64,000 nt of DNA from Candidatus Latescibacterota bacterium. GTDB taxonomy: Bacteria > Latescibacterota > UBA2968 > UBA8231. Below the pieces are notes generated by a model. That model saw only the letters and a program-made list of their open reading frames with translations, did not search any database and had not been told where the DNA came from. Location of the stretch: positions 1 through 64,000 of the forward strand of contig JAGWBY010000013.1 of the NCBI GenBank assembly GCA_021295675.1. The letters are read 5' to 3'. Numbering within the stretch: the stretch's first letter is position 1; each line of letters begins with the position of its first letter. Positions 7,660 to 47,334 of this stretch are shown in pieces. Made by a program: the position numbers and the translations under genes.

Positions 7660-9405
7660 TTACTTTGCGCCTTCGCTGTGCGGACGCATCACCAATACTT
7701 CGTAGGTAATCGGCTCGGATACGCGCTCCATCGCCACTCCGAAGTGCTCGCGCAAATAATCGAGGGCCACGTCCCAGCCGGCGGAGAAATCGACGTCGAT
7801 ATCTACTGGACGATCAAAGGGATTATCTGCTGCTGCGCCATCCCATTGCATCTCAATTTCGTCGAGGTCTTCGTTATAGCCTTCGACTATATCGTTGAGC
7901 GCGGAGTTTTCGAGCATCTCTGGGATCGCAAACCCGAGCAGACATCCCGTACAGCGGTAGCGTTTGCCGTTGGTCCACATATTCCCCTCCGGCGGGGTCG
8001 TTGGAAACTCGGAGCCGTCTTGGGTAAAGATCCAACACGTCCTAGTCCCCTGCCGCTCTTCCTCCTCAGCGACAAAGCCAAAGCGTTGGCCGAGGCGTTG
8101 GACGCGCTCGGTGGGGGTTAGGCTATGGCTGTAGGCAATCCGCACGGAGTAGCGCTGCTTGGCCAGTTTCTCCTCTGGGGTTTCCATCGGCTCTTTCCAA
8201 AGGATCCGTATGATCTCCGATCTCAGGCTCGGGATCGTTTGCTTGATGCGAGGTTCCACCGGCATTTTTCCAAGGCGCCGCACGATTTCGGCTAGCGGAG
8301 TGCGGTGAAATTCGTGGCGCGTGATCCCGCCTACTGTGTGAGAAGTACTGCCTTGGATGCCCTTGCTTGGGTCATCCGAAGGAGGATGGACGATGATGTC
8401 CATGCCGTCCAGCGGCATGTAGATGGCCTGCTTCCAAGGCACAAAGGGATCTAGGATTTGCTCAAACGGCAAGGCGGACCGCACTGAGTCGGTAAAGGAC
8501 GGAACCGCATCGTCAGTGACCATGAAAAGCTCGTCCGCCAGCGGGGTATTGTAATCCAGATAATTCAATTCACTAACCAGTTCCCAATCTTCTTGGCCCA
8601 CATCCAGATAAACGCGAGCGTGGCTAGGCAAGCGCGTCTGGGCATCTACTTCGACTTCATACCGGATATCCGACGGGGTCTTAGTGCCCAGCGAGGAGCG
8701 CCGCCAGATCGAAAAAAGCACCGTCGGTTCCCGATCTTCGCGCTCAATCTGATAGGTCCAAGGCTCTAGTTGCTCGCTCCCGGGCAGGGCCAGTTGCTCG
8801 GCGACCTTATCTATAGACCACGCGCTTTCCGCGCCCCGGTCTTCCCCATACCAGACGCCGTCCATGTAAACCCGCATTTTGGCATCGTTTACCACGGCCT
8901 CGCGCCGCGCCGCGCCAGTGCCGACTGCAGAGCGGAAAAAGTGCGGTGCCCTGATCCACTGCTGCACTGGCACTTGTTCTCCCTTTTCCCCACGGAACCA
9001 GCCTTCGACGCGCACGGAGTGCAGCTTACGCACCTCGGCGACCACTTCCGCCCACGCCGAAGTGCTCCCCTGCCAGAGTACCCCGAATACCACTCCGGCC
9101 AGTACGGCGGCCAGCCCTGACAGGTACATCGGCCGCGGCAACCGCTGCCAGAATCCCGTGCGCTGACGCTTGTCCGCTGCTTGGATCGCTTTTAATGCGT
9201 TGGTACGAGCTGCCGCAAAAAGCGCGTCCGGCGGCTCGTCGGTGCCGATGTCAGCACTCAGCTCTAGCACGGTACGCACCGCCTCCAAGTCGTCAGCCGC
9301 TTCTGGGTGCTCGGTTAGATAGGTCTCGATTTGTTGCGCTTCTGCAGCCGATAATTCGCCTCGCACGTAGTCGCTTAGTTTGCTTTCAAATTCGGCTCTG
9401 TCCAT
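7660..9405 (-). CDS. Membrane-anchored ECF sigma partner (putative anti-sigma factor) with large extracytoplasmic region
   Basis: ATG 9405 gives 581 residues and overlaps the sigma gene by 20 bases, the usual sigma/anti-sigma arrangement. Residues 1-75 are a short helical cytoplasmic domain (EFESKLSDYVRGELSAAEAQ) lacking the HxxxCxxC zinc site of ZAS proteins. A single membrane span (LSGLAAVLAGVVFGVLW) follows near residue 90. The rest is outside the cytoplasm: a stretch resembling LolA-type lipoprotein-carrier folds (AEVVAEVRKLHSVRVEG, repeated strands to about 280), then a region with two similar C-terminal segments (TPTERVQRLGQRFGFVAEEE; WDVALDYLREHFGVAMERV). Function as anti-sigma is inferred from position. 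A palindrome follows the stop. Confidence 0.7.
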   Translation of the reverse strand: MDRAEFESKLSDYVRGELSAAEAQQIETYLTEHPEAADDLEAVRTVLELSADIGTDEPPDALFAAARTNALKAIQAADKRQRTGFWQRLPRPMYLSGLAAVLAGVVFGVLWQGSTSAWAEVVAEVRKLHSVRVEGWFRGEKGEQVPVQQWIRAPHFFRSAVGTGAARREAVVNDAKMRVYMDGVWYGEDRGAESAWSIDKVAEQLALPGSEQLEPWTYQIEREDREPTVLFSIWRRSSLGTKTPSDIRYEVEVDAQTRLPSHARVYLDVGQEDWELVSELNYLDYNTPLADELFMVTDDAVPSFTDSVRSALPFEQILDPFVPWKQAIYMPLDGMDIIVHPPSDDPSKGIQGSTSHTVGGITRHEFHRTPLAEIVRRLGKMPVEPRIKQTIPSLRSEIIRILWKEPMETPEEKLAKQRYSVRIAYSHSLTPTERVQRLGQRFGFVAEEEERQGTRTCWIFTQDGSEFPTTPPEGNMWTNGKRYRCTGCLLGFAIPEMLENSALNDIVEGYNEDLDEIEMQWDGAAADNPFDRPVDIDVDFSAGWDVALDYLREHFGVAMERVSEPITYEVLVMRPHSEGAK

Positions 9406-9910
9406 GGCGCTTAGTCCTTGCAGCCAGCACCCAAATGGGCGCGGATTTTTTAAGTGCTTTGTACTCGCTGGCTCTGGCCGACTCCTCGCTGCATCCCAGT
9501 CGTGCGGCGATTTCGGCAAAGGGCCAGCCTTCGAAGTTGCGCAGGGCGAAGACGGTGCGCTGGCGCTCGGGCAATTCAGCGGCCAAGTCGCGCACTCGGT
9601 CCATGAGCAAGCGGTGCTCGGCGTCTTTGTCGGCATCGGCTTCCACCGTGGTGTTTTCCTCTTCGTAGAGCAGCGCCCGATGTTGGTAACGCCGGACTTT
9701 GAAGGCCGAGTTGGTCGCCACCCGGCAAAGCCATGCCTTGGGGTGGGCGATGATCTCGCCGCGCATACAGGTGGCGTGGAAGCGGAGGAAGGTCTCTTGG
9801 AAGACCTCCTGTGCTTCGTCGGCATTGGCGACGATAGTATAGGCCACCTTGAGCACTAGGCGTCCGTAGTGCTCTACGGCTTCGGCGCTTATGTCGGCTG
9901 GTCGGCGCAA
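9386..9910 (-). CDS. ECF-type RNA polymerase sigma factor
   Basis: 174 residues if started at TTG 9910. Region 2 is visible in YTIVANADEAQEVFQETF and region 4 in LPERQRTVFALRNFEGWPF followed by the helix-turn-helix AEIAARLGCSEESARASEYK. Nothing suggests region 3, as expected for ECF factors. The longer open frame upstream to 10123 lacks sigma features and overlaps a better small ORF, so it was trimmed. The TTG start lies three bases past the stop of that small ORF, pointing to translational coupling. The overlapping downstream gene is the likely regulator of this sigma. Confidence 0.85.
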   Translation of the reverse strand: MRRPADISAEAVEHYGRLVLKVAYTIVANADEAQEVFQETFLRFHATCMRGEIIAHPKAWLCRVATNSAFKVRRYQHRALLYEEENTTVEADADKDAEHRLLMDRVRDLAAELPERQRTVFALRNFEGWPFAEIAARLGCSEESARASEYKALKKSAPIWVLAARTKRHGQSRI

Positions 9911-9912
9911 AA

Positions 9913-10047
9913 TTAGTTGGCGGCTAAGAGGGCTTCGATCTGCTCTGCACTCGGCACGCTGCCCAAAAGACCCGTCTCGGCGAGACGACCATCGCGGCCG
10001 ATCAGCAGGGCCACTGCTGCCGTGGCAATAATCGTTCGATTCAACAT
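9913..10047 (-). CDS. Small ORF upstream of the ECF sigma gene (44 residues)
   Basis: ATG 10047 has an AGGAG eight bases upstream, better than the sigma gene itself. The product begins MLNRTIIATAAVALLIGRDG, a short hydrophobic helix, and ends PSAEQIEALLAAN. The second half resembles the last strand and helix of TlpA/thioredoxin-fold proteins (LIGRDGRL.E.GLLG...IEALL), so it could be a decayed tail of one, or a leader peptide coupling translation to the sigma gene. No function assigned. Confidence 0.5.
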   Translation of the reverse strand: MLNRTIIATAAVALLIGRDGRLAETGLLGSVPSAEQIEALLAAN

Positions 10048-10145
10048 GATCCACGCTCCTGTTTAGCATGTAAGTCGTGTGCGTCTGCGCCGGCCGGTGG
10101 CGCGTTTGCCCTATATGACCCACAAGGCGCGACTATGTGAACCGC

Positions 10146-10179
10146 AAAAATAAAAAAACCGCCTAGTCGCCTAGACGGT
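10146..10179 (-). terminator. Rho-independent terminator ending the large minus-strand gene run
   Basis: On the minus strand ACCGTCTAG (10179-10171) pairs with CTAGGCGGT (10166-10158) around GCGA, followed by seven T, A and five T. It lies 25 bases after the stop of the last 888-residue gene and is the only clear terminator between 10.1 and 32.7 kb on that strand. Confidence 0.88.
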
Positions 10180-10203: not shown

Positions 10204-12870
10204 CTACCGCTCGACCCCCGCGTAAATAGTGATAAAGCTCCGCGTTGTAACCTCGCTCCGCCGATCCGCGAAGCTGGTTCGCGTCAGTTCGAAGCCCAAG
10301 GTCGTAGTTAGCTGATAGCCTAGGTAGTCCGAGGTATTAATCAGTTGTGCCGTGGTGGTCAACCCGCGGAAGCTATCCTCCGCACCCGGTGGCGTGGGAT
10401 TGCGCAACTGCGAGAAGATCTCGTATTCCACGCCAGCCGCGACGGTGCTTCGACGCATCAGCGGGAAGCGGAATACCAGCATCAACAGTTCGTCGAGTTC
10501 TAGGCGCGCTGGCGTCTCCGCAAGCACTGGCCGGCGGCGCGAGAATTCGCTCTTCCAACGCGGTAGCAAGGTGTACCCCCCCGCGCTCAAGCGATACTCC
10601 GCCTTGTTGATTACACCCAAAAACGAGGCTGTCTGGCGCAAACCCCTCAGCTCCAAGTCGATCCGGCCATCCAGTTGGCGGTGGAACTGCCACTTGGCCT
10701 TGTGCTCCAAGCGCAACCCCGCAAAAGGCCGCTGTTCCCAGCCGAACCACGACATGCCTATGACGGTGTTGCGCGCGGCGAGGGGATCCTCTACTCGGTA
10801 TAGGCCCCCTCGCGTATTGGGTTGCTGCCTCCATTGCAGGAGGGGGTCGGCGATATTGTCCCGTACTTTGCGCAGATCTTGGAAGAGCCGCACCCGACCC
10901 CAGCGGTTGAAGTCGCGGTCGAAGGTCAACACGCCGTAGAGGGCTTGGTTGTGCTCGGCCGCCGCCAGTCGGCGCATGTCCATCTTCCCCAACATCAGTC
11001 GCACGCCCGGCAGCAGATGGGCACCACCGAAGGCGTTGTAGCCCTGCCGGTCGCGGCGGTAGGGCAGGTCGGCTTCCTCGTCGTTTTCAAAGCGATCAAT
11101 GGTGCCGTTGTGGTTCATGTCCATCCCGTAGAGGAATTCGGGTCGGTCTGAGTAGTAGCGCAGGAAGGGCTCCTCGTAGTCGGGGATCAGGTTTGGGCTG
11201 TCCTCGTTGTCGTTTTGGTTGAAATCGGAAATGAAGTCGTTGTTCTCGTCCCATCCGGGAAAGATATAGCGATCTCCCGGCCCCCATCCTTTACGCCGCC
11301 AGTCGGGATAGCCATCCTGATCGTCGTTGTCTTCGACGAACTCGTAGAGTTCAAAGTGGTTGCCATAGTCAAGCGTGCCCTCCTCGCTGGCGGTCACCAT
11401 CGAGGTCTGGTAGGTCGGATCAACGCTGAACGCCTCGACCAAAAAGAAGTACGGATAGGGCGTGCTGGAGAGGTTGGCGAACCAAGCTAGGGCTTCGTCA
11501 CCGGTGGTGTGGTGCCGTTTGCGGTTGGGGTTGGGGAATTGCCGGTAGCGGTTGTTGATGTCGATCTCCGCGTATCCGGTGAACCCGGCTAGGTCGGTCA
11601 GTTCAAAGGTGAATCCGGCGATTTGATTAGCCGTCGGCAGCCCATAGTCGAAGGCCAACACCCGCTGATTGGAACCGTCGTGGACGTTGCCCCGGGCTCG
11701 GGCTACTGGCAGGAAGACGATATTGTCGTCGTCGTTTATTTGGTTGTCGGAGGCGACTTCAATCAGGTAGTCGTTGGCCACCACTAGTTCCACTGCGACC
11801 CGGGTGATCTCGGTCGGGTCAACGCCGACATAGCCGGCGTCGGCTAGGTCGTAGCGCACCAAGATCTCCTCCAACCCGTCCGCGGCCAAAAAACCTTGAC
11901 GCTGGAGGCCGCCCTCGATGAGCGGCCGGAAGCCTATTTCGCTGGCGCGCGTCGCGTTCCCCTCTAAGTCGTACACCAGTAGATCGCTGGCGAAGAGCGC
12001 GCCGCCGCCCTTGCCGTCCGCGGGGGAATCGTCGCGGATGCGGATCTCGATCATGGTCACGGGCGTGAAATTCAGCGCCTCGGTTAGCTGCCCTTTGAAG
12101 ATATCGCCGTTGATTGCCTGCCGCTGGGTCTGCGAGTGATGCGCGTTGACCAGCGTGCCCCCGACCTTGACGAAGTCCCCGACTTGGACCTCCAGCCTGC
12201 CGCCAAACAAGTTGGTATTGTTGGTGCGCTGCTCAGACCACGTCCCCGGCGAGCTAGGTTCCGAAATCCGCGACATCAGCAGCGTCGCTTGATACTTGTC
12301 GGCAGCGTAATCGATTTGCAGGCCGTTGAAGCGCGGTTTGGAGAACGTCATCGGCGTTAGCGTAGTGCGAATCTCGTTGCCGACGGTGATGGCGTAGTGG
12401 TGCTCCCCCTTGTGGTCGGAGGCGACCACAAGGCTGTTGAACCAACCGCTGAAACGCGAGGTCTTCTGCACGGCACTGCCGAAGGGCTGGGGATTTTCCT
12501 GCCGCCAGTCGTAGATCAGCCATCCCCGGGTCAGGAAGTTTCCATAGACGTCGTAGAAGTAACCGCCCTCCAGCGCGATAGGGACGTAACGCTGGTAGTT
12601 TTCGCGTGCGTAGTTGGCGTATTCCCACTGGTTCCAACGGTATTCGGTGTAGAGTTCCTGCGGCACGTACCACTTGCGGATGGCGGGATCGAGCGCGTCG
12701 AAAAGCACGCCGGGGCCTCGGGGCTCGTAGGTGACCCGGCCGCCGCGCTGGACGGTGCCCAAGCGGGCACCGTAGTCCTGGGCTTGGGCGGCGTCAACCA
12801 ACAGTACGACAAGCAGGCTGTATTTTATCAGTTGCGCCAGCCCTCTCGTTTTTAATGGTAGAACGGGCAT
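10204..12870 (-). CDS. Putative outer-membrane barrel protein, 888 residues (paralog E)
   Basis: Signal peptide at residues 1-30 (LIKYSLLVVLLVDAAQAQ). The N-terminal half is a repeated beta-rich domain shared with 14777-17443: RGWLIYDWRQE, SLVVASDHKGEH, TVGNEIRTTLTPMTFSKPRFNG, IRIRDDSPADG. A highly acidic segment follows (EDNDDQDGYPDWRRKG, then NENNDF-like blocks) and a calcium-type loop D-M-N-H-N-G-T-I-D-R-F-E near residue 581. The last ~250 residues are amphipathic strands ending SFITIYAGVER, as expected for an outer-membrane barrel. ATG overlaps the previous stop (TAATG), so it is translationally coupled. No named family recognised; membrane location is inferred. Same length as its paralog. 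Confidence 0.7.
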   Translation of the reverse strand: MPVLPLKTRGLAQLIKYSLLVVLLVDAAQAQDYGARLGTVQRGGRVTYEPRGPGVLFDALDPAIRKWYVPQELYTEYRWNQWEYANYARENYQRYVPIALEGGYFYDVYGNFLTRGWLIYDWRQENPQPFGSAVQKTSRFSGWFNSLVVASDHKGEHHYAITVGNEIRTTLTPMTFSKPRFNGLQIDYAADKYQATLLMSRISEPSSPGTWSEQRTNNTNLFGGRLEVQVGDFVKVGGTLVNAHHSQTQRQAINGDIFKGQLTEALNFTPVTMIEIRIRDDSPADGKGGGALFASDLLVYDLEGNATRASEIGFRPLIEGGLQRQGFLAADGLEEILVRYDLADAGYVGVDPTEITRVAVELVVANDYLIEVASDNQINDDDNIVFLPVARARGNVHDGSNQRVLAFDYGLPTANQIAGFTFELTDLAGFTGYAEIDINNRYRQFPNPNRKRHHTTGDEALAWFANLSSTPYPYFFLVEAFSVDPTYQTSMVTASEEGTLDYGNHFELYEFVEDNDDQDGYPDWRRKGWGPGDRYIFPGWDENNDFISDFNQNDNEDSPNLIPDYEEPFLRYYSDRPEFLYGMDMNHNGTIDRFENDEEADLPYRRDRQGYNAFGGAHLLPGVRLMLGKMDMRRLAAAEHNQALYGVLTFDRDFNRWGRVRLFQDLRKVRDNIADPLLQWRQQPNTRGGLYRVEDPLAARNTVIGMSWFGWEQRPFAGLRLEHKAKWQFHRQLDGRIDLELRGLRQTASFLGVINKAEYRLSAGGYTLLPRWKSEFSRRRPVLAETPARLELDELLMLVFRFPLMRRSTVAAGVEYEIFSQLRNPTPPGAEDSFRGLTTTAQLINTSDYLGYQLTTTLGFELTRTSFADRRSEVTTRSFITIYAGVER

Positions 12871-14780
12871 TAGTACGCTACTCCTATTGTCCCCAGATGG
12901 CGCTCCTCAAACGCGTCTGCCTGCACCCGCAATACCCACACATAGGTCCCCGGCGCTAGCAACTTCCCATCCGCGGTCCTGCCATCCCAACGGTAGCGCG
13001 CTGGCCCGATCCCCCGCTCCTCTGCAAACACTCTGTGCATCCGCCGCCCTGCCAAGTCGAACACGTCTAGTGCCACCGGCGCTGGCTCGACGATCTGCAA
13101 CAAGTTGAAAAACATCTCAAACTGGTCATTGACCCCGTCCCCATTGGGCGTGAACACCCGCGTGCTGATCGCGATCTCGCCGACCAGCTTGCCGATCTGC
13201 GGTTTGGGGATTTCCACTGCCAGCCCCGAGAGCTCGTCTTGGTCCTCCGGCCCGAAATCCACGACCTGTCCCGGCGCGACGATCTGCGGTACCGTTGGGA
13301 ATTGGCTGTTGTAGGCGCGGCTGGAGAACGTGGTGCCGAAGCGGAAGATCGGCAGGTCATAGGTGAATTCCAGCACGGCCCCGTCTGTGCGCACCAGCGC
13401 AAAACTCAGCCGGAAGCCTTCTTGGCGGGCGTATTCTACTGCGAAATCCACCGCCTGCCCATCCAAGCGCACGTTGCGGATATTCTCCACTGGCGCGTTG
13501 GAGTCCACGGCCAATGCGTCATAGCCGCGCACTGCTCCGTTAGCCCGCAGCAACACCGCGTAGTGGAACGTCGCTGGCTTTTCCGCCTCGGCCAGTCGCG
13601 GAAAGACTTCGGCCCGAAGGGTGTCGGCGATTGGCGGGCGCAGGTAGTCGAATTCGAGCCGATCGACGAGGCGCGTATCAAAGAGCCGGCCGGCAAAGGC
13701 AAACTGGAACTGGATAAAGCGCCGCGGCCCCGGTGCTGTTACTAGGCCGCTGTTCAACACGCGCTGCCACGGGCTCCAGTTTTCTTCGTCCTCCTGCGGT
13801 GGCAAGCGCTTGAGGCGGTCAAGCGACCAGTATTCGGCGGCACTCACCTCGGCGTTGGTAGAAAGTGAGAACGGATCTTCAGGCCCAGTTCGCTGCCGAT
13901 AGACGATTGGCGTGTCGTCTCGCCCGGTGCGCACTCGCGCCGTCAGGCGGGAAAAGGGCGCTTCGCCAACCACCTCCTCCACCCAGCGTACCTCGCCGAC
14001 GGTGGCGGGAGCCCCTAAGTCGAGCAGGTCCGTCTGATAGGTCGCCTGGCTCATATAGCCCGTGCCATAGACTTCTAGCTCGTCGATCTCAAAGGGCACT
14101 TCCGACAGCGAACGCAACTTTACCAGCCGCACGTACTGGGGCCTGACCGCCACATCGACCACTGGATCCTCGTTTTCCAATTCGCGGATCACCAAAATGT
14201 CTGGCGCGCCGCTGACGCGGTTGGTCAGCCGCGGGTTGACCCACAGTTCGTACGCGCGCAGGAAATCGTCTTGGTAGGGCTGGCGCGGCGTGGCCGCCAC
14301 GGTGTTGCGCGGATAGAAGCGCACTCGCTGCACGCCCACCTGTTGGACAAAGTCGAGGATGATCCAGATGCCATAGGCCGGAACCAGCGGATTGAAGGGG
14401 GTGGGTTTGCGCTCGAAGGCGACGGTGTGGTCGCCGTTGACGATGCCGCGGAGCTGGGCTTTGCGAAAGTCGGTGCGCCTAGTCGCCGCGTTGGGCACCT
14501 TAACCGAGCCTTGGCCTTCGAGCACTAGGGAGGCGATATTCTCCGCGCCGTCGAAAAAGCGCGGGCTGATCCATCCCGGTCGATGAACGAACTCGACCGC
14601 ACCCACCAGCACGTTGCTCGTATCCACCTGTGGCCGCACCGAGGAGCCAACCAAGAATTCGGGGTCGATGCCGTCGCCGCCGCCTGTCCATTTGTGCTCA
14701 ACACCGCCGAGCTCAAAGGTGCGGACTTGGCCGTCGGCATTCAGGGCCAGCAATAAGAGTGCCGCGCAAGCCCAGTTCAT
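12870..14780 (-). CDS. Secreted discoidin-like protein with FTPNGDGVND C-terminal domain (paralog D)
   Basis: 636 residues from ATG 14780, which overlaps the upstream stop (ATGA); the longer frame to 15215 is out of phase with the upstream gene. Signal peptide MNWACAALLLLALNADGQ. Residues ~110-250 look like a galactose-binding/discoidin beta-sandwich (YGIWIILDFVQQVGVQRVRF ... EVPFEIDELEVYGTG). The last ~100 residues hold FTPNGDGVNDQFEMFF, VALDVFDLAGRRMHR, YRWDGRTADGKLLAPGTYVW and the terminal GVAY. This resembles both FlgD-like folds and the gliding-motility/type-B T9SS C-terminal domain. Followed directly by the 888-residue barrel gene. Confidence 0.75.
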   Translation of the reverse strand: MNWACAALLLLALNADGQVRTFELGGVEHKWTGGGDGIDPEFLVGSSVRPQVDTSNVLVGAVEFVHRPGWISPRFFDGAENIASLVLEGQGSVKVPNAATRRTDFRKAQLRGIVNGDHTVAFERKPTPFNPLVPAYGIWIILDFVQQVGVQRVRFYPRNTVAATPRQPYQDDFLRAYELWVNPRLTNRVSGAPDILVIRELENEDPVVDVAVRPQYVRLVKLRSLSEVPFEIDELEVYGTGYMSQATYQTDLLDLGAPATVGEVRWVEEVVGEAPFSRLTARVRTGRDDTPIVYRQRTGPEDPFSLSTNAEVSAAEYWSLDRLKRLPPQEDEENWSPWQRVLNSGLVTAPGPRRFIQFQFAFAGRLFDTRLVDRLEFDYLRPPIADTLRAEVFPRLAEAEKPATFHYAVLLRANGAVRGYDALAVDSNAPVENIRNVRLDGQAVDFAVEYARQEGFRLSFALVRTDGAVLEFTYDLPIFRFGTTFSSRAYNSQFPTVPQIVAPGQVVDFGPEDQDELSGLAVEIPKPQIGKLVGEIAISTRVFTPNGDGVNDQFEMFFNLLQIVEPAPVALDVFDLAGRRMHRVFAEERGIGPARYRWDGRTADGKLLAPGTYVWVLRVQADAFEERHLGTIGVAY

Positions 14781-17443
14781 AGCTGCAACCCCGCGTTGAT
14801 GCTCATAAAGAGCAGGCTGGCGCGCTGGTCTTCGCTCTGGGCAAAATTGCGCCACAGCCACTGCGCTCCCACTCGGGTCACCAATTGGTAGCCGGCATAA
14901 CCCACTCTGTTGGTTAGCTGGATTACCAACGTCTGGCCCGTGAAGTCCTCCGCGACCTCTGGGTGCCTGCCCTCCAGCATCCAGAACCGGCTCCACTCTA
15001 GCCCGCACTGAAGCTGGGTGTCGAAGATCTGGCGGCCGTGCCGCGCATAGTAGCTGACCGAGACCTGCTCGGCTAGGATCGGCTGCACCCACAGCAGGAA
15101 CAAGGTCTGTTCCAAGCTCTCTGCCACAGGTGCCCGGCTGTGGAAGGGCCGGACGCGGCGGTACTCGCTCTTCCAGCGCGGCTCCACCCGGCCCAGCCCC
15201 AAAGGCACTGTCCACTCGGCTTTGTTGATCGCGCCGAGAAAACCCGAGCTAGCGCGCCCTTCGCGGCTGCGGAACGCCGCGCGATCTCCGCGCTGCCACC
15301 AGCCCTCCCACTTGAAGCGGTGCAGGTGGCGCAGACCCCAGTCAAAAGCCTGTTCCCAGTCGGCGTACAAGGTGTTGCGCCAAGCGTTGTTCCCCGGCAG
15401 CCGATCCACAACAGTCTGCATCCGTCCCACCGCGCCCACGGGCTGCACCCATTGCTCCAAGTCATCCGGGATGTCGTCCCTGACGCGCGCGGCGAAATCG
15501 AAAAATCGCAGTTGCCCGATCCTGAGACTCCAGCGCGCCGCGGCCAGCGCGTACATGGCATGGGTGCGACCATCCCCGGAAATCAGCCGCACGCGCTGGT
15601 GGCCCAACGCCAAACTCGCATCCGGCCCTAGATGCCCGCGGACATACATATTGAAACCGCGATGGTCGCGCTTGTAGGGGTAATCGGGCAAGAGGTCGTT
15701 CTCGAAACGGTCGATTGTGCCGTTGTGGTTGAGGTCGAGGCCGAAGAGGTACTCCGGTCGGTCCGAGCGAAAGCGCAGGAAGGGTTCTTCGTAATCGGGG
15801 ATGAGATTGCGGTTCTGGTTGTGGTCGTAGATGAAGTCGCGGTTTTCGTCGTAGCCGGGAAAAGCCACCCGCGAGAAGCTCTGGAAGGGCCGCTGCCATT
15901 CCGGGATGCCGTTGTCGTCGTCGTCGTCATCGACGAATTCGTAGAGGTTGGGAGTCGGCGCTTGATAGCGGATATCGCCGTTGCCCTGCACGAGCCAGTA
16001 GTTGGTCGAATAGTCGTCGGACAGCGAGAACAACTCCCCGGCTATGTCATAGGGATAGCGCTGGTAGGCCACTTCCGCGTACGCGGCGTGGGCGCTTTGG
16101 ACGAAGTGGTGCAGGTGCTTGACGTCGCGGCTGGGATACATGCCGTGCTGCCGGTTGGCTACGGCCTCGCCCCGGAATGAGAGTCCGCGCCACTCGACCA
16201 AGTCCCAGTTGATCCCTAGTAGTTCGTTGGCGGTGGGCAACCCGTAGTCTAAGCGCAACACTTGGCTATTGCTGTTGTCTTGGACATTGCCCGGCGATCG
16301 CGCGACAGGGAAAAACACGATCTGCGGATCGCGCCGCTCTCCATCGGTCTGCAAGTTTGAGGCCATCTCGACTCGGTAGTCGTCGGCTACCACCAACTCA
16401 ACCGCGGCTCGGCGCAAGGTGGCCGAGCGCAATCCTTCGTGGTCGAGGGCGGCAAAATCGTATTCGAGCAGGATCGTCTCCGAACCGTCGGCTACCAGCG
16501 CCCCAGCCCGCGTCCGCCCGCCCTCAATGCGCGGCAAAAAGCCGATTTCTCGCCCGCGCACTTGGGTGCCGCTGGTATCGACCAGCACGATGTCGTACCT
16601 GAACAGCGCCGTGCCACTCACCCCGTCGGCCGGCGAGTCATCCCTGAGCCGCACCCATAGTTTGTCCAGCGGCTTGTTCTGGCCGGTGGTCAGCGTCCCG
16701 GACAGAGGGTTGCCGTACGCAATCTGCACTTGGCTTTGCGCGTTGTGGGCGTTGATATACGTAACGCCGAGGAGCGCCGCATCGCTGGCTTTAAACTGGG
16801 CGTGGCCCCCCAACAGGTGCGTGGTATTGGTGCGGTAGGCGTTGTCCGGCTGGCTCGGCCGCGACAGCAGCAGGCTCCCCACGAGGTGCTCGTTGGCCCA
16901 GTCGAGGCGCAGCCCGTTGAACTCGGTCTTGTTGAAGGTCAAGGGCGTGAAAGTGGTGAAGATCTCGTTGCCGATCATCAACCGCGCGCTGGTTGCCCTG
17001 CTCTCGTCTGAGGCGATCACCAGATTCTGGAAGAATCCCGAGTAAGGAAGTCCTTGGCGGATCAGGCTACCCTCGCGTTTGGTTTGCTCCTGTTCCCAAG
17101 TATAGACCAGCCAGCCGCGTCCCAAGCGGTGGCCGAAGGTGTCGTACCATGGCTCGCCCTCTAGGCTGGCGTTTAGGAGAGTCCGATAGCGTTCTCGCGA
17201 GTAGGAGGTCCCGTAATCGTACCAAGGCTGCATATAACTTTCGGCCAGATGCCGGGGTGCGTACCAGCGGTGCATTCGCGGCATGATGTATTCTAGCTCA
17301 AAGTGCGGCACTTCCCACGCGGCCGACGGTAGGCCCTGCAACCCCCACCGGCTCGCGTCCGCACGTTGCGCCTCAACCGCTAGCGGGCGCAGCGCACAGC
17401 AGGCCAAGACGCCCGCCAGCCAAGCTGTTTTTCGCCTCGTCAA
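14777..17443 (-). CDS. Putative outer-membrane barrel protein, 888 residues (paralog C)
   Basis: TTG 17443 overlaps the upstream TGA (TTGA) and gives 888 residues, exactly the length of its paralog at 10204-12870; this supports the start over the longer open frame. Signal peptide LLTRRKTAWLAGVLACCALR... to VEAQ. Shared blocks with the paralog: RGWLVYTWEQE, NLVIASDESRA, MIGNEIFTTFTPLTFNKTEF, VRLRDDSPADG, LDYGLPTANELLG. Acidic DDDDDDNGIPEWQRP and the EF-hand-type loop D-L-N-H-N-G-T-I-D-R-F-E lie near residues 520-570. The C-terminus (LLFMSINAGLQL) is barrel-like. Function unknown; location inferred. Confidence 0.7.
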   Translation of the reverse strand: MTRRKTAWLAGVLACCALRPLAVEAQRADASRWGLQGLPSAAWEVPHFELEYIMPRMHRWYAPRHLAESYMQPWYDYGTSYSRERYRTLLNASLEGEPWYDTFGHRLGRGWLVYTWEQEQTKREGSLIRQGLPYSGFFQNLVIASDESRATSARLMIGNEIFTTFTPLTFNKTEFNGLRLDWANEHLVGSLLLSRPSQPDNAYRTNTTHLLGGHAQFKASDAALLGVTYINAHNAQSQVQIAYGNPLSGTLTTGQNKPLDKLWVRLRDDSPADGVSGTALFRYDIVLVDTSGTQVRGREIGFLPRIEGGRTRAGALVADGSETILLEYDFAALDHEGLRSATLRRAAVELVVADDYRVEMASNLQTDGERRDPQIVFFPVARSPGNVQDNSNSQVLRLDYGLPTANELLGINWDLVEWRGLSFRGEAVANRQHGMYPSRDVKHLHHFVQSAHAAYAEVAYQRYPYDIAGELFSLSDDYSTNYWLVQGNGDIRYQAPTPNLYEFVDDDDDDNGIPEWQRPFQSFSRVAFPGYDENRDFIYDHNQNRNLIPDYEEPFLRFRSDRPEYLFGLDLNHNGTIDRFENDLLPDYPYKRDHRGFNMYVRGHLGPDASLALGHQRVRLISGDGRTHAMYALAAARWSLRIGQLRFFDFAARVRDDIPDDLEQWVQPVGAVGRMQTVVDRLPGNNAWRNTLYADWEQAFDWGLRHLHRFKWEGWWQRGDRAAFRSREGRASSGFLGAINKAEWTVPLGLGRVEPRWKSEYRRVRPFHSRAPVAESLEQTLFLLWVQPILAEQVSVSYYARHGRQIFDTQLQCGLEWSRFWMLEGRHPEVAEDFTGQTLVIQLTNRVGYAGYQLVTRVGAQWLWRNFAQSEDQRASLLFMSINAGLQL

Positions 17444-19995
17444 TAGACCACCCCCACCAAGCTCGCGGCTTGAGTTTTGCCCGCACCCACATCCGCGGCG
17501 AAAGCGACGCGCACCAGATAAGTTCCCGGCCGCACCAGTGCTCCTGTGTCGTCGCGACCATCCCAAACCACAGCGTGGTCGCCGCTGGGATTTTCCCGGC
17601 GCAGCGAAAGCTCGCGCACCTTGCGGCCGGACAGGTCGTAGATGCCGACGTCAATCCGCCGTTCCCGGATGAGGCGGTAGATGGTAAAGCGGATCTCGGC
17701 TTGGTCGTTTAGGCCGTCGCCGTTGGGGGTAAAGACCTCGGGTTGCAAACGCACGCGGTCCAACAGCGGGAAGTTTTCCACATCGGCCACCACCACTAGC
17801 GACTGACTGGCAGCCAACGACCCAGCGTCGCCCTCGCTCACCGCCTGAACGATCCCGGGTCGGGTCGCGCGTTTCAGTTCGGCACCAAAGGTGGTGCCGC
17901 TCAAAAACACCCGCGTGCGGAAGCGCGCCTCGTACAGCGACCGCCCACCGGTGACCGGCGCGGGAAAAGCCAATTCCACGGACCCGTCCTCTAACCGCGC
18001 TAGCTCCAGCGGCCCTGGCCATAGCTCTCGCCCGGTGCCGACGCGCAACTGCGTCTCGCTGCCTTGCCGGAACGAGACAAGCTCAATCGGGACCGAGGAT
18101 GACGAGTGCAGCCGAATCCGGTCAAAGCCGGAATTGCCGGGGCCAAAAACCGGGCGGATGTACATGGAGAAGCGCTGTTCTGCCCCTGGCTCCACCCCAT
18201 CGATAGGCCACACTTCGGCAAAGGTCTGGTCCACCAATGGCGGCGCTAACTTGAGCCGCAAGCTCCTCATCTGCGCCGTCCGCAGCGGTTCCTGGGTCAA
18301 AAGCCGTATCTGCGCTTGGGCGAAGCGCCGGGGGCTAGGTGACTTGAAAGGCTCTCCCGACGTTAGGTAAACCCCACTCCAATTGCTCCATCCCGGTCCC
18401 GGTATTTCCCGGACTATCACCTCGCCGCGATTTTTCTCGTAGCGAATAGACTCCCACTCCTCTTGGCTGATTTCCTGCCCCACTACGTCGAAGTAGCGCC
18501 GCTCCTCAATCACTTCGTCGCCGCTGCGAGTGCGGATTTCTAGCTGGGTGCCCGGGGGCTGGTCTCCGTCCCATTCCACGGCGGAGAAAATTCGCGGGCG
18601 GCCTAGGCGGATAACGGGCGATTCGAACGCGACTTCGGACACGTAGCCTTCGCCATAGGCTTGGATCTCGCTCAAGTTGCCCGTCTCGCTTAGCTCTCCC
18701 ACCAATTCCAGACGCCTCAGTTCCAAATAGCGCACCTCGCGCAAGGGGAACTGCTCCTCTAGCTGGAGAAAGGACTCCCGATTCTGCCGCTCCTCCAAAG
18801 CCTCCCACAACAGCGAGCCATCGGGGTCGAGACGGCCGTCCGAGATTCGGAGTTGATAGGCGTTTAAAGGCCCCTCGGCGCTTATTAGGCGCACCCGGTC
18901 CAGCCAGAACCGGGCTCCTAGGTCCACTAGGAGCTGATTGCGGTCGCGCACCGAATCGTAAGTCCGCAGCGGGTAGAAGGAGCGGAAGAGGCCATCGGTC
19001 GCCAGCGCGAGCAGGATATTGTCGAAGATGCTCACGTCGCGATTGCGGAGCCGCTGGGTCAGATTGACGACATTGTCCCCTATGGTATAGACCTCAAGCT
19101 CGGCCAAACGCGGCCGCTCGCGGCGAAAATAGCGCACTTGACCCTGTTCCTCTGCGGGCAAATCTCGATGCGTCTGCTCGTCGATTAGGATTTGGCGGCC
19201 AATGACTGTCTGGCGGAAGTACTCGACCGTCCCTTGGTCTGCGGGCGACAGCGCCTCGTAGGTAGCTCGATCTACTTCCGCGCCCCGCGTACTGTCCGAA
19301 GCCAACGCCTGAAAGCGCACGATCTGCGCCACTTCGCCCTCGACTCCGGCGGGCAAGGGGCGCTGGGGCCGGACCTCAAAGCTGAACTCCCGCTCCGTCT
19401 TGTTGGGGTACGTCACCTGCCCGACGCGGAAAAACTTCAGCGGTCGCTCTGGATGTCCCCGCCCGTCCGAGAGCAGCACCCTGAACTTGAGGAAGGGATC
19501 GCCCGCTTGAGCGAAGCGCACGACCACCCTTTTGGCGATTACTGATCGCCCTAGTTCTACATCGACAAACCAGTCTTTCAGTGGGTCGGTCGGGTCGGGC
19601 TCCCAATAGGTGGCTTGGTCCCCGTCCATTGTGAACGGTGCCTGCGCGGCGCTGCTGCCCGCCCGGCGGATTCCCCCCACCAAGGTGTCTCCGCCGGCCT
19701 CCGGGGTCTCGAACTCCATTGCGTTGAGTGCGGCGTTGATGTCGCGGCGCAGGAAGCGGGGCAATACTGCACCTTCGGCCGCAACTACGTGTGCCCCTAC
19801 AGGTGCCTCCCATTCGGCCCAGTGCGCTGCTTGGTCGATGACGACCTCGTCCCGCGTCAGCCGGTAGCCGGTCTGGGCGTTGAGGGTGGGTGGATGCGTC
19901 AACAATAGACAGAGTACCGCCGACCAAGATCGCCGAATAGATGTTCTTAGGTTCATGCCGTCAGGCCAGCTAGAAAGCGATCTGGTCTTATTCAT
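17440..19995 (-). CDS. Secreted discoidin-like protein with FTPNGDGLND C-terminal domain (paralog B)
   Basis: 851 residues from ATG 19995, one base after the upstream stop; the longer frame to 20154 is antisense-like and lacks a signal peptide. A signal peptide follows a short basic lead (SWSAVLCLLLTHPPTLNAQ). A discoidin-like domain is visible around MDGDQATYWEPDP and WFVDVELGRSVIAKRVVVRF; a second beta-sandwich region ends SEIQAYGEGYVSEV. The C-terminal ~100 residues read VFTPNGDGLNDQAEIRFTIY, VGIYDLSGRKVRELSLR, WDGRDDTGALVRPGTYLVRV and end VGVVY. This is the largest of three proteins sharing this tail; the next gene overlaps it by four bases. Confidence 0.75.
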   Translation of the reverse strand: MNKTRSLSSWPDGMNLRTSIRRSWSAVLCLLLTHPPTLNAQTGYRLTRDEVVIDQAAHWAEWEAPVGAHVVAAEGAVLPRFLRRDINAALNAMEFETPEAGGDTLVGGIRRAGSSAAQAPFTMDGDQATYWEPDPTDPLKDWFVDVELGRSVIAKRVVVRFAQAGDPFLKFRVLLSDGRGHPERPLKFFRVGQVTYPNKTEREFSFEVRPQRPLPAGVEGEVAQIVRFQALASDSTRGAEVDRATYEALSPADQGTVEYFRQTVIGRQILIDEQTHRDLPAEEQGQVRYFRRERPRLAELEVYTIGDNVVNLTQRLRNRDVSIFDNILLALATDGLFRSFYPLRTYDSVRDRNQLLVDLGARFWLDRVRLISAEGPLNAYQLRISDGRLDPDGSLLWEALEERQNRESFLQLEEQFPLREVRYLELRRLELVGELSETGNLSEIQAYGEGYVSEVAFESPVIRLGRPRIFSAVEWDGDQPPGTQLEIRTRSGDEVIEERRYFDVVGQEISQEEWESIRYEKNRGEVIVREIPGPGWSNWSGVYLTSGEPFKSPSPRRFAQAQIRLLTQEPLRTAQMRSLRLKLAPPLVDQTFAEVWPIDGVEPGAEQRFSMYIRPVFGPGNSGFDRIRLHSSSSVPIELVSFRQGSETQLRVGTGRELWPGPLELARLEDGSVELAFPAPVTGGRSLYEARFRTRVFLSGTTFGAELKRATRPGIVQAVSEGDAGSLAASQSLVVVADVENFPLLDRVRLQPEVFTPNGDGLNDQAEIRFTIYRLIRERRIDVGIYDLSGRKVRELSLRRENPSGDHAVVWDGRDDTGALVRPGTYLVRVAFAADVGAGKTQAASLVGVVY

Positions 19996-19996
19996 A

Positions 19997-21799
19997 TCAG
20001 TACGCCACTCCCACCGAGCCCCAGCGGCGCTCTGAGTCCTCGTCGGCTTGTACGCGCAACTCGTACAGATACAGCCCCGGCGGCACCAGTAAACCCTGGT
20101 CGTCCGTTCCGTCCCACTCCACTGCATAGGACCCGTTGCTGCCCATCCCCTCATAGGCCCGCCGCACCCGGCGACCAGCCAAGTCGTACATTTCCAGCGT
20201 CACCGCAGCCTCCGCAACGAGCTTCAACAGCGCGTAACTCAGTGCGAAGGCGTCGTTGATCCTATCGCCGTTGGGCGTGAACAACCGGGTCCCCTGCAAC
20301 TGCGCCACCAGCGGCACGTTGCCGTCCGCGAAGCGCACGACCAGATTGGTCCCTTCCAGCGAGGGATCCACATCGCGCTCGTCGGCCACTTGGTATGCTT
20401 CTTCAAGTTGGCCGTCCGCATCTCTGCGGTCGAGTGCCCGCACTTCAAAGCGGGTGTAGTCGCGGAACACAGTGCCGCGAAAGACGATCTGCACGAAGGT
20501 TCCCGTTTGCTCGATGTGCCGCCACAAGTCGATGTCGAAGCCTGCGCTGGGCTCGTAGGTGGCGGAAAAGGAAATCTCCTCGTCATCGACGAGTATCCGC
20601 TCGATTTCCGTTACCTGCGCGTCCGTGCGCACCTGCAGGAAGCGGAAGCCCGTGGCTTGCGGGTCTCGGCCTCTGTCGGGGCGCAGGCGCACTTCCATGG
20701 ACAGGGTAAAGCGCGTTTCGACGCCCGGCTGCACGACGCCGGGGCTAATCTCGGCCAGCAGGCTGCTGACCACCGGCGGTCGCGCAAATTCGAAGACCAG
20801 CCGCCTGAGCACGGCCCCCGGTGAGGCCATGCGCACCCTGAACTGCAAAAAGCGGCGCAGCCCTGGCGAGCGCATCAGGCCGCCGCTGACCGTCTGCCAG
20901 CTACTCCACAGTGGATTGGGTTTGATCGGCCCCTTTTCCTCATCGGGCAATGCTTGGTAATCCTCTCTGCTCACCCGCAGCAACCCGTCCTCTGCTTGGA
21001 GGTCTAGGCGGAAGTAGTGCTCGGGGTCGCGGTCGGAGCCGGTGCGCGTCTGCACGGTGGCGGGGGCGTTTTCTATGGAGCCGCCCTCGTAGCGCACTTT
21101 GCCCCAGACGATATTGGGATAGCGCGCCCTGACCGGCCTGGAGACATAAGTGCCCACGGGCGCGTCGCCAGCGCCGTAGATTTCCACTTCCGCCAGTTCC
21201 CACTCGCGCTCAGTGCTAGGCTCTATGAGCACGTAGCGCACGTCGCGGCTATCAATGCGCTTTTCCACCACAGGCTCGACATTGGGTGTGGAGGCGAAAA
21301 AGCTGAAGGCTCGGTCGTACTCTGCTTGGCTTTCGGCTTTGGTGAGAAGGCGAAAAACTTGGAGGAAGCGGCGTCTGTTCTGGCGGTCAAGGCGCGGGAA
21401 GAGGCGGACGCGATCGATGCGGAAGACGGCACCGAGGTCGATCTCTACGGGCGTACTGCGGTTGATAGCGTCAAACTGATCTGGATCGAAGGCCGTGGAG
21501 GTATCACCGTCGTATAGCAGAGTGCCTAGGGGCACGCGAAAGGTGCCATCGAGATTTGCCACCAGCCCCACCGCCATGCCTCCGCGCTCGGCCAAGCGCA
21601 GCGACAGGTTTTCGCCGGCTTCTGCCGGCCACGTCCAGATGGAATCGCGCGCTACGCCTAGGAACTGAGCCTCTTCGACAATGCTGTCCCAGCGGCCTAG
21701 GCGGCCGTCTTGGCCCACGTCGAGGGTATCGACGGCCAGCACGGAAGTGGCGCTGGAGAGGAGGCCGATTAGCAGGGCATAGTGTGTGGCTTTATTCAA
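19997..21799 (-). CDS. Secreted discoidin-like protein with FTPNGDRIND C-terminal domain (paralog A)
   Basis: 600 residues from TTG 21799, 14 bases after the preceding gene; no better start exists in frame before the signal peptide (YALLIGLLSSATSVLA). Domain order: discoidin-like sandwich (LYDGDTSTAFDPDQF, VEIDLGAVFRIDRVRLFPR, EWELAEVEIYGAG), a middle beta-rich region, then LFTPNGDRINDAFALSYALL, VTLEMYDLAGRRVRRAY, VEWDGTDDQGLLVPPGLYLY and the final GVAY. It opens the five-gene module A-B-C-D-E and, unlike B and D, is not directly followed by a barrel gene. Confidence 0.72.
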   Translation of the reverse strand: MNKATHYALLIGLLSSATSVLAVDTLDVGQDGRLGRWDSIVEEAQFLGVARDSIWTWPAEAGENLSLRLAERGGMAVGLVANLDGTFRVPLGTLLYDGDTSTAFDPDQFDAINRSTPVEIDLGAVFRIDRVRLFPRLDRQNRRRFLQVFRLLTKAESQAEYDRAFSFFASTPNVEPVVEKRIDSRDVRYVLIEPSTEREWELAEVEIYGAGDAPVGTYVSRPVRARYPNIVWGKVRYEGGSIENAPATVQTRTGSDRDPEHYFRLDLQAEDGLLRVSREDYQALPDEEKGPIKPNPLWSSWQTVSGGLMRSPGLRRFLQFRVRMASPGAVLRRLVFEFARPPVVSSLLAEISPGVVQPGVETRFTLSMEVRLRPDRGRDPQATGFRFLQVRTDAQVTEIERILVDDEEISFSATYEPSAGFDIDLWRHIEQTGTFVQIVFRGTVFRDYTRFEVRALDRRDADGQLEEAYQVADERDVDPSLEGTNLVVRFADGNVPLVAQLQGTRLFTPNGDRINDAFALSYALLKLVAEAAVTLEMYDLAGRRVRRAYEGMGSNGSYAVEWDGTDDQGLLVPPGLYLYELRVQADEDSERRWGSVGVAY

Positions 21800-21813: not shown

Positions 21814-23922
21814 CTATTCGAGTTTGACCATTTTGCGGGTGCGCGTCTGCTCGTCCACCTGCACCCGATATACATAGACCCCAGTGGCGACGGGTTGCCC
21901 CTGCGCGTCGCGGCCATCCCAAGTCAGCTCGTGCTCGCCAGCCGGCAGCGGACCATTCCACACTTGGCGTAGCGGCTGCCCTAGGATGTTGTAGATGGTT
22001 AAGGTCACATTCTTGGCTCCAACGGGAACGGCCAAGGGGATGGTCGTGGCGGGGTTGAACGGGTTGGGATAGTTGGCCCCGAGGGCAAAGATCGTTGGTG
22101 TGGCCGCCGTCTCGTTGGCTACGGCGGTGGCCGGGGGGCCTTGGTTTTTAAAGACGAAGACGCCGCCGGGATTGCTTGCCGGACTCGTTCCCAGCACGAC
22201 TATATCGGTGTCGCCATCGCCGTTGACATCGCTGGCGAGGACCTGGTTGCCCTCGCTTGGCAGGGGGTAGTAGCCTTCGAGGACGGGTGCGCCGTTGCGT
22301 TGGCCGAGCAGCACCACCAGCGCCGGACCGATGGGCGAGTTGCCAGCGATCATGGCCACATCCAGTACGCCATCGCCGTTGAGGTCGCTGGCGGTCGCCT
22401 CTGACGGGAGCACCTTCCAGTCAAGCAAGGAATGGCGTACCAATCCGCCGGAGGCATCCAGACGCCACAGGACCAAGCCGTAGTAATCGAATTCGCGGAA
22501 CGGATCTATGCTCTCGGAGGAGCCGAGTAGATCCACCATCCCATCGCCATCGAAGTCGGCCAGGAGGTGCAGGTCGCAGGGATTGATCGGGGCCGCAAAA
22601 GAGAGCGGCGGTTCCTCGATGGCGGCCCACGGCTGGGTCAGTTGCCAAAAGTCTTGCGGCTCAAAGCAACTCCCACTCCACAACAGGCTCGCAGCTTCGC
22701 CGAGGGGTTGTCCGGCGGGCAGCCAGGGCCAGCGCCACTCCTCGCTGTGGAGGACGAAGGTATCGCTATCGACAAAGTCGTAGCCGTCGTTGATCCACAT
22801 AATCACTATTTGGAAAAGAATATCGCCGACCAACAAGTCCGTATCGCCGTCGCCGTCGCCATCGGCCAAGCCAACGAGCCCGCCGTCGAACAGTTGCAGG
22901 GTGGGTTCAAAGCCGCCGCCCCAGTTGTACCACACTTCGACGTTCCTCCCCGATTGGTAGTCAACGACCAAATCGAGGAGTCCATCGCCGTCGAAGTCGC
23001 TTCCCCGCAGGTCCATACGTGGAGGGCCGTCAGCGGGTTCGGTTGCGAGGAGGAACTCTTGGGTGGGTTCAAAGCCGCCTAGCCCGTCGTTGGACGCCAC
23101 AATCCAGCCCAGTTGTCTTTCGCCGTCCACAAGGCGGTGCCAAGCCGCCACGAGGTCCGCATCGCCATCGCCATCTACATCGCCCATCGCGCCGTGCGAT
23201 TGGTCTTCCCAGTAGCCTCGCCCGAAGGTTGGGATGCCGATGCCCTCGCCGAGCGGGAAAAAGTCGGGTTCGGCGAACAAGGTGCCGGACGGCCCCAACC
23301 CCACACCGAGATCTCTAGGCGACAATTCTCCCTGCGTCACCTCTTCGGCTCCCGTGAGTTGGATCCAGTCTATTTCTAAAAACTTGGGATGGTTGTCTAT
23401 ATCCTGCGAGTCTCGGTATAACATCATGTCTATGCGAATAATATAGAGGGTATCCTGCCAGATGATCTCCAACTCTGGGTCTGCTGCCAAGGCGCGTAGA
23501 TCTAGGGTGATTTCTTCCCATTCGATGGGATAGGGTTGACGATCTATCCCCGCGGCACTAAGCCCCGCTTTAGGGTGGCGTCTTTTCTCGGCGTTGGACC
23601 AGAACATCGAGAATGGCCCCTCAGTGGGGCTATGATGGATGAGGCGCAGCCGTAGGGTAATGCGGTCGAACAGGGCCGAGTCTTGCCCAATCAGCGGCGC
23701 GCGCAATTGAACGGTGGGGGTGCGACCCGGCACGGGCGCAATGCGCCAGACGCCATTGACGATTTCGGTCTGTAGTGGGTCGTTACTGCCTAGTTCGTTG
23801 CTATAAATAGTACTTTCCCGGGCGCTCCAGCCATAGGTGGAGCCGTCGTCGAAATCCCACGTTAGAGCAAAGGCTCCGCATGGAGCGGCCACCAATAAAA
23901 TTGCTAAGAGAACGCGGCGCAT
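21814..23922 (-). CDS. Secreted FG-GAP/VCBS-repeat protein with type-A T9SS sorting domain (copy 1)
   Basis: 702 residues; signal peptide MRRVLLAILLVAAPCGAFA. Residues ~20-175 form a beta-sandwich-like domain opening LTWDFDDGSTYGW, similar in style to carbohydrate-binding modules. From ~230 to 600 run FG-GAP/VCBS repeats with calcium-loop cores: GDVDGDGDADLV, SDFDGDGLLDLV, ADGDGDGDTDLL, ADFDGDGMVDLL, SDLNGDGVLDVA, SDVNGDGDTDIV. Residues ~615-702 are a type-A T9SS C-terminal domain: NYPNPFNPATTIPLAVP, YNILGQPLRQVWNG, WDGRDAQGQPVATGVYVYRV, ending RKMVKLE. GGAGG lies upstream of ATG 23922. Expected at the cell surface or released; ligand unknown. Confidence 0.85.
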   Translation of the reverse strand: MRRVLLAILLVAAPCGAFALTWDFDDGSTYGWSARESTIYSNELGSNDPLQTEIVNGVWRIAPVPGRTPTVQLRAPLIGQDSALFDRITLRLRLIHHSPTEGPFSMFWSNAEKRRHPKAGLSAAGIDRQPYPIEWEEITLDLRALAADPELEIIWQDTLYIIRIDMMLYRDSQDIDNHPKFLEIDWIQLTGAEEVTQGELSPRDLGVGLGPSGTLFAEPDFFPLGEGIGIPTFGRGYWEDQSHGAMGDVDGDGDADLVAAWHRLVDGERQLGWIVASNDGLGGFEPTQEFLLATEPADGPPRMDLRGSDFDGDGLLDLVVDYQSGRNVEVWYNWGGGFEPTLQLFDGGLVGLADGDGDGDTDLLVGDILFQIVIMWINDGYDFVDSDTFVLHSEEWRWPWLPAGQPLGEAASLLWSGSCFEPQDFWQLTQPWAAIEEPPLSFAAPINPCDLHLLADFDGDGMVDLLGSSESIDPFREFDYYGLVLWRLDASGGLVRHSLLDWKVLPSEATASDLNGDGVLDVAMIAGNSPIGPALVVLLGQRNGAPVLEGYYPLPSEGNQVLASDVNGDGDTDIVVLGTSPASNPGGVFVFKNQGPPATAVANETAATPTIFALGANYPNPFNPATTIPLAVPVGAKNVTLTIYNILGQPLRQVWNGPLPAGEHELTWDGRDAQGQPVATGVYVYRVQVDEQTRTRKMVKLE

Positions 23923-23982
23923 TGTTTACCTCCAGAGTTTGCGGTCGTATGGTTTAGATTTCTCAGCTTCAAGCCCTATCGC

Positions 23983-24018
23983 CTATTCGAGTTTGACCAT
24001 TTTGCGGGCGTGCGTTGT
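23983..24018 (-). pseudogene. Fossil 3' end of a VCBS-family gene
   Basis: Reading the minus strand, codons T-T-H-A-R-K-M-V-K-L-E-stop match the last residues of the neighbouring VCBS genes (TRTRKMVKLE). The stop lies exactly 60 bases before the copy-1 ATG, the same spacing and sequence as the spacers 26097-26156 and 28323-28382. Only the tail remains; the body is replaced by the thioredoxin-like gene ending at 24054. Confidence 0.85.
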
Positions 24019-24053
24019 GCTTAATTAAACCGTATCGATCTTAAAACGGCTTC

Positions 24054-26096: not shown

Positions 26097-26156
26097 AATG
26101 TACCTCCAAAGTTTGTGGTCGTGCGGTTTAACTTCACCATCTCCAAGCCCTATCGT

Positions 26157-28322: not shown

Positions 28323-28382
28323 TGTCTGCCTCCAGAGTTTGTAGTCATGCGGTTTAGCTCCCCCATCTCCAAGCCCTATCGC

Positions 28383-30512: not shown

Positions 30513-30537
30513 CGTTTTCCTCCAGAGATCGGCTCGT

Positions 30538-32643: not shown

Positions 32644-32671
32644 AAGGCTATCTCCAGAGTTTTTGGTCGTT

Positions 32672-43472: not shown

Positions 43473-43544
43473 AAATGTCCGAGCCGATTCAACCCCGACT
43501 TTGCCATAATAGGGGAACGTTTCTGATGTACATGAGGAGGTATC

Positions 43545-45329: not shown

Positions 45330-45333
45330 ATAC

Positions 45334-47333: not shown

Positions 47334-47334
47334 C

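Follow-up and report, generated by a model that had tools for sequence, protein, structure and literature searches.

Adjacent genes for cargo-like proteins and a large, probably barrel-forming partner family in Latescibacterota

In Flavobacterium, the type B cargo proteins of the type IX secretion system (T9SS) form cognate pairs with their shuttles, and type B proteins may be anchored through the binding of a PorP-like protein, according to passages of two papers (PMC12618676, PMC9143113). Excerpts of the former add that the PorP/SprF gene commonly lies directly downstream of the type B cargo gene and that, in Flavobacterium, five motifs of the C-terminal domain (CTD) are required and yet insufficient for recognition, the minimal signal extending up to 235 residues (PMC12618676). 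How widely the T9SS is distributed is described differently in the relevant passages of recent sources: it is called exclusive to Bacteroidota (2025; PMC12618676), is placed in the wider FCB group (2024 review; PMC11205867), or is treated as Bacteroidota-specific with SprA being FCB-specific (2025; PMC12611786). Nothing was found in the open-licence literature that links Latescibacter with type IX secretion or the T9SS.

The DNA analysed here (the window) is a stretch of 64,000 nucleotides from a Candidatus Latescibacterota bacterium, and contains five tightly packed minus-strand genes, A to E (Table 1). A and B are separated by a single base, B/C and C/D overlap by four bases and D/E by one, and the coordinates thus confirm the gene packing reported in a first-pass annotation of the same DNA. 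A, B and D finish in GVAY, GVVY and GVAY, respectively, which agrees with the G-V-(A/V)-Y ending it had noted, and they are paralogous over much of their length, beyond the tail too (26–30% pairwise identity). The paralogy that it had seen between C and E is likewise evident, the two aligning end to end with 350 of 902 identities (39%). The length of exactly 888 residues given for both holds for E and, with a TTG start at position 17443, for C; a start at the following in-frame TTG (17407) would shorten C to 876 residues. Since the start of C is a matter of choice and the listed E-family relatives range from about 850 to more than 1000 residues, the number has no meaning in itself. The locus resembles SprB–SprF of F. 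johnsoniae and PG1035–PorP of P. gingivalis in that cargo with a CHU_C-type end is followed directly by a partner gene, SprA is present and there are many pairs per genome. It differs from them in that the partner is about 890 residues long and has no PorP/SprF match, the cargo tails score below the cut-off of the type B sorting model TIGR04131, and the partner covaries better with other parts of the cargo than with the CTD. The arrangement is of a known kind, cargo with a dedicated membrane partner, and the partner family itself is absent from the named families that we could find in the libraries searched.

Table 1. Positions of the features discussed in the text, numbered from the first base of the window
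Feature	Position	Strand	Remarks
A	19997-21799	minus	600 aa, TTG start; probable secreted surface protein, D family
B	17440-19995	minus	851 aa, ATG start; probable secreted surface protein, D family
C	14777-17443	minus	888 aa from TTG start; E-family partner
D	12870-14780	minus	636 aa, ATG start; probable secreted surface protein
E	10204-12870	minus	888 aa, ATG start; E-family partner
A CTD	about 20000-20287	minus	CHU_C 31.5 bits, FlgD_ig 34.9 bits; TIGR04131 19.0 bits
B CTD	about 17443-17742	minus	CHU_C 29.1 bits, FlgD_ig 34.2 bits; TIGR04131 17.0 bits
D CTD	about 12873-13160	minus	CHU_C 34.3 bits, FlgD_ig 24.4 bits; TIGR04131 21.9 bits
EF-hand-type loop of C	15701-15736	minus	residues 570-581, DLNHNGTIDRFE; ligand positions conserved in alignment A3
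EF-hand-type loop of E	11086-11121	minus	residues 584-595, DMNHNGTIDRFE
Terminator-like hairpin	10158-10179	minus	9 pairs and T run; 25 bases behind E
SprA, downstream part	58010-61837	minus	frame broken; TIGR04189 262 bits
SprA, upstream part	61828-63882	minus	frame broken; TIGR04189 341 bits

The CTDs of A, B and D all pass the cut-off of Pfam CHU_C (PF13585; 27 bits). Of the two models with which the first-pass annotation had suggested comparing the tails, FlgD_ig (cut-off 27 bits) is matched over the cut-off by A and B and not by D, while the T9SS type B sorting domain TIGR04131 is reached by all three with 17–22 bits only, against a curated cut-off of 35 bits. At E≤0.1 CHU_C was matched in 64 of 65 D-family members, and the galactose-binding-like F5/8 type C domain in 12 of the 65 at the same threshold. 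One member, from locus L090, reaches 42 bits with the latter, over the cut-off, and A itself has a weak F5/8 type C match in Pfam. A PDB search with a family alignment (A4) matched FlgD and C5a peptidase, in both cases at the CTD. SusD was not among the 13 Pfam families matched by the 65 members, nor was it matched by A, B or D.

The pairing of the two families was followed in relatives found by a contig scan with 12 family members, the best 80 of 400 confirmed loci (L001–L080) being kept. The A–E stretch shares 93.6% DNA identity with L001, whose record title reads Gemmatimonadetes bacterium, and 92.9% with L002, the 6.27 Mb chromosome OX638377.1 of an uncultured Latescibacteria; we take the record labels of the 80 loci (Latescibacterota, Gemmatimonadetes/Gemmatimonadaceae, Handelsmanbacteria and others) to denote one phylum. 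These loci, among which there are closely related strains and genomes represented by several loci, contain 110 E-family ORFs, of which 14 lie too near a contig end; directly upstream of the 96 assessable ones (same strand, at most 300 bases away) there is a D-family gene in 83 cases, another E gene in 6 and neither in 7. Profile searches identified 47 E-family genes in the chromosome G001 and 41 in the chromosome G002. Directly upstream (within 300 bases), 33 and 22 of them, respectively, have a D gene and 9 and 10 have another E gene, which leaves 5 and 9 whose closest D or E gene lies farther away or is missing from the region taken. D-family matches are more numerous, at least 159 in G001 and at least 157 in G002 among the best 150 candidates per genome, with two matches possible per gene. 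Within the regions taken, 56 of 150 D genes have an E gene directly behind them and most D genes have none; the layouts D-E-E and D-D-D-E also occur. D–E pairing is conserved and widespread, contrary to the possibility, raised in the first-pass annotation, that the pair might not be conserved together in any other genome.

Across 60 genomes from the phylum of G001, the E family scores strongly in 32 (best E no higher than 1.9e-303) and weakly in 4, and is absent from 24. The best D scores fall into the same three grades with no exception (1.4e-77 or lower, 1.2e-18 to 3.9e-23, and 3.7e-14 to 3.5e-10, respectively), although this co-occurrence represents few independent events since the distribution follows clades. 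SprA is over its cut-off in 57 of the 60 genomes and in 23 of the 24 that lack E; hence SprA does not need E. In the window, as in OX638377.1, SprA is encoded about 36 kb upstream of A on the same strand. The gene probably starts beyond the end of the window, and its frame is broken at 61828-61837, between two overlapping ORFs, which could be an assembly error; in G001 and G002 it is a single frame of 2171 and 2106 residues. PorV_fam is over its cut-off at seven places in each of two genomes. PorP/SprF (TIGR03519) is over the cut-off in 0 of the 60 genomes, with the positive controls also silent, and weak matches below the cut-off occur in 11. A weak PorP/SprF match in G001 (50.7 bits) was set aside, as PorV_fam scores higher on the same protein (70.8 bits, also below its cut-off); it is absent from the 60-genome survey. 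GldM (TIGR03517) gave no match, and the controls were silent here too, which means that this is not evidence of absence. SusC is over the cut-off in 11 of the 60 genomes and gives weak partial matches in all 60, Bacteroides ihuae being among the controls that were matched. In other genomes of the phylum (L158–L161), proteins of about 920–1160 residues share a stretch of about 90 residues with SprA (model positions 603–692) and match neither the E nor the D profile. This is a phylum outside Bacteroidota with SprA in nearly every genome sampled, many cargo-like proteins and no recognised type B carrier, so that how the cargo is retained at the surface becomes a sharp question for which a candidate family is at hand.

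Neither C nor E has a match in Pfam or NCBIfam, the models of PorP/SprF, SusC (TIGR04056) and the TonB plug included, and at about 890 residues they are indeed unlike the ~300-residue PorP/SprF proteins, as had been remarked at the outset. E matched no PDB chain, PDB searches with alignments A3, A5 and A9 were also without credible result, and a search of a plasmid collection returned no match. The start of E resembles a signal peptide, and no later stretch is equally hydrophobic. Acidic loops abound at about residues 510–600 of E. They include a 12-residue loop of EF-hand type, in which the 84 sequences of alignment A3 show no variation at residues 584, 586, 588 and 595 and hardly any at 592. 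A strict 12-residue pattern, which we take to be that of EF-hand-type loops, is present in 64 of the 105 E-family sequences taken from L001–L080 and the window and in 47 of the 88 taken from G001 and G002; among 188 D-family sequences it is present in one, and shuffling E sequences gives it in 1.6%. The segment may bind calcium.

The fold of the family was approached through a diverged branch (A5), which aligns to E over 770 columns with an hhalign probability of 100. SlpA_C (PF21620) is the precomputed label of 40 of the 120 diverged members listed, and a rescan of those 40, picked for their label, returned it in all of them (best E 2.1e-8). Scores of 20.3, 19.3, 18.3 and 12.4 bits lie under the 35-bit cut-off, with matches of about 90–175 residues (92 residues at 20.3 bits in P0247), the three matches from an earlier scan of nine diverged members being among those below it. 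The C-terminal segment of SlpA is described as a 30-stranded outer-membrane barrel in a passage of PMC9388160. The likeness to this barrel domain of Deinococcus SlpA is partial and confined to diverged members; C and E themselves differ from SlpA in having neither SlpA_C nor SLH matches in Pfam and in being paired with a cargo-like gene. We regard the SlpA_C matches as moderate evidence that E forms a barrel, which is its likely fold. Strand counts gave z values of 1.7 for E, 1.7 for D, 1.4 for PorV and 5.0 for SprA, and a second form of the statistic gave 1.5–1.9 for E (1.3–1.7 for its last third), 3.0–3.5 for D, 1.4–1.8 for PorV, 7.4–8.6 for SprA and 3.2–4.1 for the diverged branch. Such amphipathic-strand tests are unable to show a barrel here because D, held to be soluble, scores above E. 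A candidate homology of E to SprA was rejected as not significant (hhalign probability 0.6, E 0.095).

Covariation was analysed in adjacent D–E pairs, 129 of which were reduced to 75 by dropping E proteins at least 85% identical to one another. Distances between E proteins correlate with those between D proteins at r=0.369 for the CTD, 0.583 for the N-terminal part and 0.661 for the middle, the CTD value being above zero (permutation maximum 0.163). In 90-column segments of D, r is 0.428–0.706 before the CTD, where segments near the N-terminus are less fully occupied and rest on 1128–2211 of the 2775 comparisons, and 0.387 and 0.392 for the two segments wholly within the CTD; the stronger conservation of the CTD can alone depress its correlation, though the segments are equally long. 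For pairs whose E identity is under 0.5, the values are about −0.14 for CTD segments and 0.02–0.47 for body segments. Columns 406–540, just before the CTD, reach r=0.65, and the partial correlation with the CTD peaks in the last of the three thirds of E (0.218). When D proteins were labelled by their nearest neighbour as E-adjacent or other (chance level about 0.53), the CTD was correct for 114 of 145, columns 440–540 for 124 of 145 and columns 181–280 for 116 of 144; with only partners of at most 45% identity allowed, the correct labels numbered 96, 107 and 92, respectively. Since body segments covary most with E and the CTD least, it is apparently the body of D, and not its end, that is the specific partner of E.

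The regions around the pairs are enriched in parvulin-type isomerases, which occur in 25 of 31 regions of G001 and 20 of 28 of G002 (L086–L144). Genome-wide, 24 of 33 parvulins in G001 and 20 of 32 in G002, the totals being of our own grouping, are found no more than 10 kb from an E gene, where uniform placement would give 3.7 and 3.3; circular shifts reached the observed proximity in 1 of 5000 and 0 of 5000 trials. Passages of the respective papers describe an isomerase subunit of unknown function in the SprA translocon of F. johnsoniae (PMC10994853) and isomerase folds carried by Bacteroidota BAM complexes (PMC12611786), so that the parvulins could be linked to export or to membrane insertion. 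Recurrent neighbours in G001 include TPR proteins and FG-GAP/ASPIC proteins, and PMT-TPR genes adjoin E genes there. Among 120 leftover G001 neighbours there are 12 with DUF6785 and 21 members, in 21 regions, of a secreted-looking family of about 300 residues (for example L086:16854-17852), one of which has a CBM9 match below the cut-off; a further G001 family of about 250 residues has 11 members, with a cysteine after a signal-like start in the three inspected. Solute-binding proteins, permeases, sulfatases and their activators, and DHDPS, MR_MLE and PhyH enzymes are also found near pairs, although genes of this catabolic kind make up a minority of the neighbours and glycoside hydrolases are missing from the top 25 of 77, 96 and 55 neighbour families.

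We propose that each pair encodes a two-part surface complex in which E is a dedicated dock for the body of D, a proposal for which we judge the chances to be even. A protein of the B or D type would be exported by Sec and then pass through the SprA channel, its CHU_C-type CTD serving as a generic signal for exit that common machinery (SprA and perhaps PorV-family carriers) recognises. The outer membrane would be the destination of the C/E-type protein, which would probably form a large barrel that includes a calcium-binding segment; the discoidin/Ig-like body of the cognate partner would pack onto this protein and be retained at the surface. The first-pass annotation had instead suggested E as a cognate T9SS carrier, both shuttle and anchor, that recognises the type-B-like CTD at SprA in place of PorP/SprF. 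Its observational part is upheld, with D followed by an unrelated large partner in the numbers given above, SprA in most genomes and PorP/SprF over the cut-off in none, albeit with silent controls. The gene order is also that of type B cargo and PorP/SprF in excerpts of PMC12618676, the last third of E is the one best correlated with the CTD, and a signal as long as the 235 residues of Flavobacterium may be compared with the covariation of columns 406–540 with E. The proposed mechanism fares worse, as the tails fall below the TIGR04131 cut-off, and the CTD covaries least with E and labels E-adjacent D proteins no better than the body does, which speaks against E as the cognate reader of the signal and favours a dock with general signal reading. 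PorV-family genes are present, E is about three times as large as PorP/SprF, and the D-E-E and D-D-D-E layouts do not suit a shuttle. We therefore consider the carrier mechanism less likely than a dock for the D body and, taken by itself, improbable.

A strong rival, which is compatible with the dock and would give it a purpose, is that the pairs are Sus-like uptake complexes in nutrient-acquisition loci that arose independently of SusC/SusD, D being a ligand-binding lid delivered by the T9SS and E a large outer-membrane channel. As with SusC/SusD, there are many adjacent pairs (47 and 41 E genes per genome) of a probable secreted, binding-type protein and a large presumed membrane protein. 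The F5/8 type C matches in part of the D family, the recurrent ~300-residue secreted family with its one CBM9-like member, the transport and catabolic genes among the neighbours, the scarcity of SusC over the cut-off and the covariation of E with the D body, as of a lid on a channel, all fit such a role. Against it, catabolic neighbours are few and glycoside hydrolases do not rank among the top families; C and E lack a TonB plug and a SusC match, leaving no visible energy link; and A, B and D differ from SusD in having no SusD match, a T9SS-type end and signal peptides that by eye look like those cleaved by signal peptidase I. We rate uptake as rather unlikely on this balance; were it correct, the pairs would be a second, unrelated answer to the problem solved by SusC/SusD. 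That C and E are instead beta-rich proteins, secreted or periplasmic, with D as their binding partner seems very improbable. The lack of Pfam, NCBIfam and PDB matches and the failure of the amphipathicity tests to discriminate leave room for it, but diverged family members match the SlpA barrel, and the signal-peptide-like start with no later hydrophobic helix also speaks against it, though a soluble protein could look the same. Extending the dock proposal, such genomes may possess more than 40 docks independent of both SusC/SusD and PorP/SprF, each receiving, by way of SprA and not in lipoprotein form, a body-matched lid or adhesin and each having a local parvulin to serve it, an idea that we hold tentatively and at somewhat less than even chances.

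Several features of the surroundings of the cluster were also recorded. By eye, no parvulin isomerase is among the ORFs listed for the cluster in the window. The terminator-like hairpin behind E is one of 11 such sites in the region, a number equivalent to the mean of 11.3 in shuffled sequences and hence no enrichment. Directly behind E, positions 7660-10123 encode an ECF sigma factor and a protein with an anti-sigma zinc finger match below the cut-off, and a similar protein with a zf-HC2 match below the cut-off lies behind the cluster at the matching locus of G001 (L112:15110-16870). On the other side, positions 21814-32706 contain, by eye, four similar FG-GAP-type proteins of about 700–750 residues. 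The protein at 21814-23922 has an FG-GAP match and scores 38 bits with the type A sorting domain (cut-off 23), and between members of the set, at 24054-26096, stands a protein that by eye has internal repeats and an end resembling thioredoxin. Farther on, at 41562-49618, membrane proteins with TPR-like repeats can be seen by eye.
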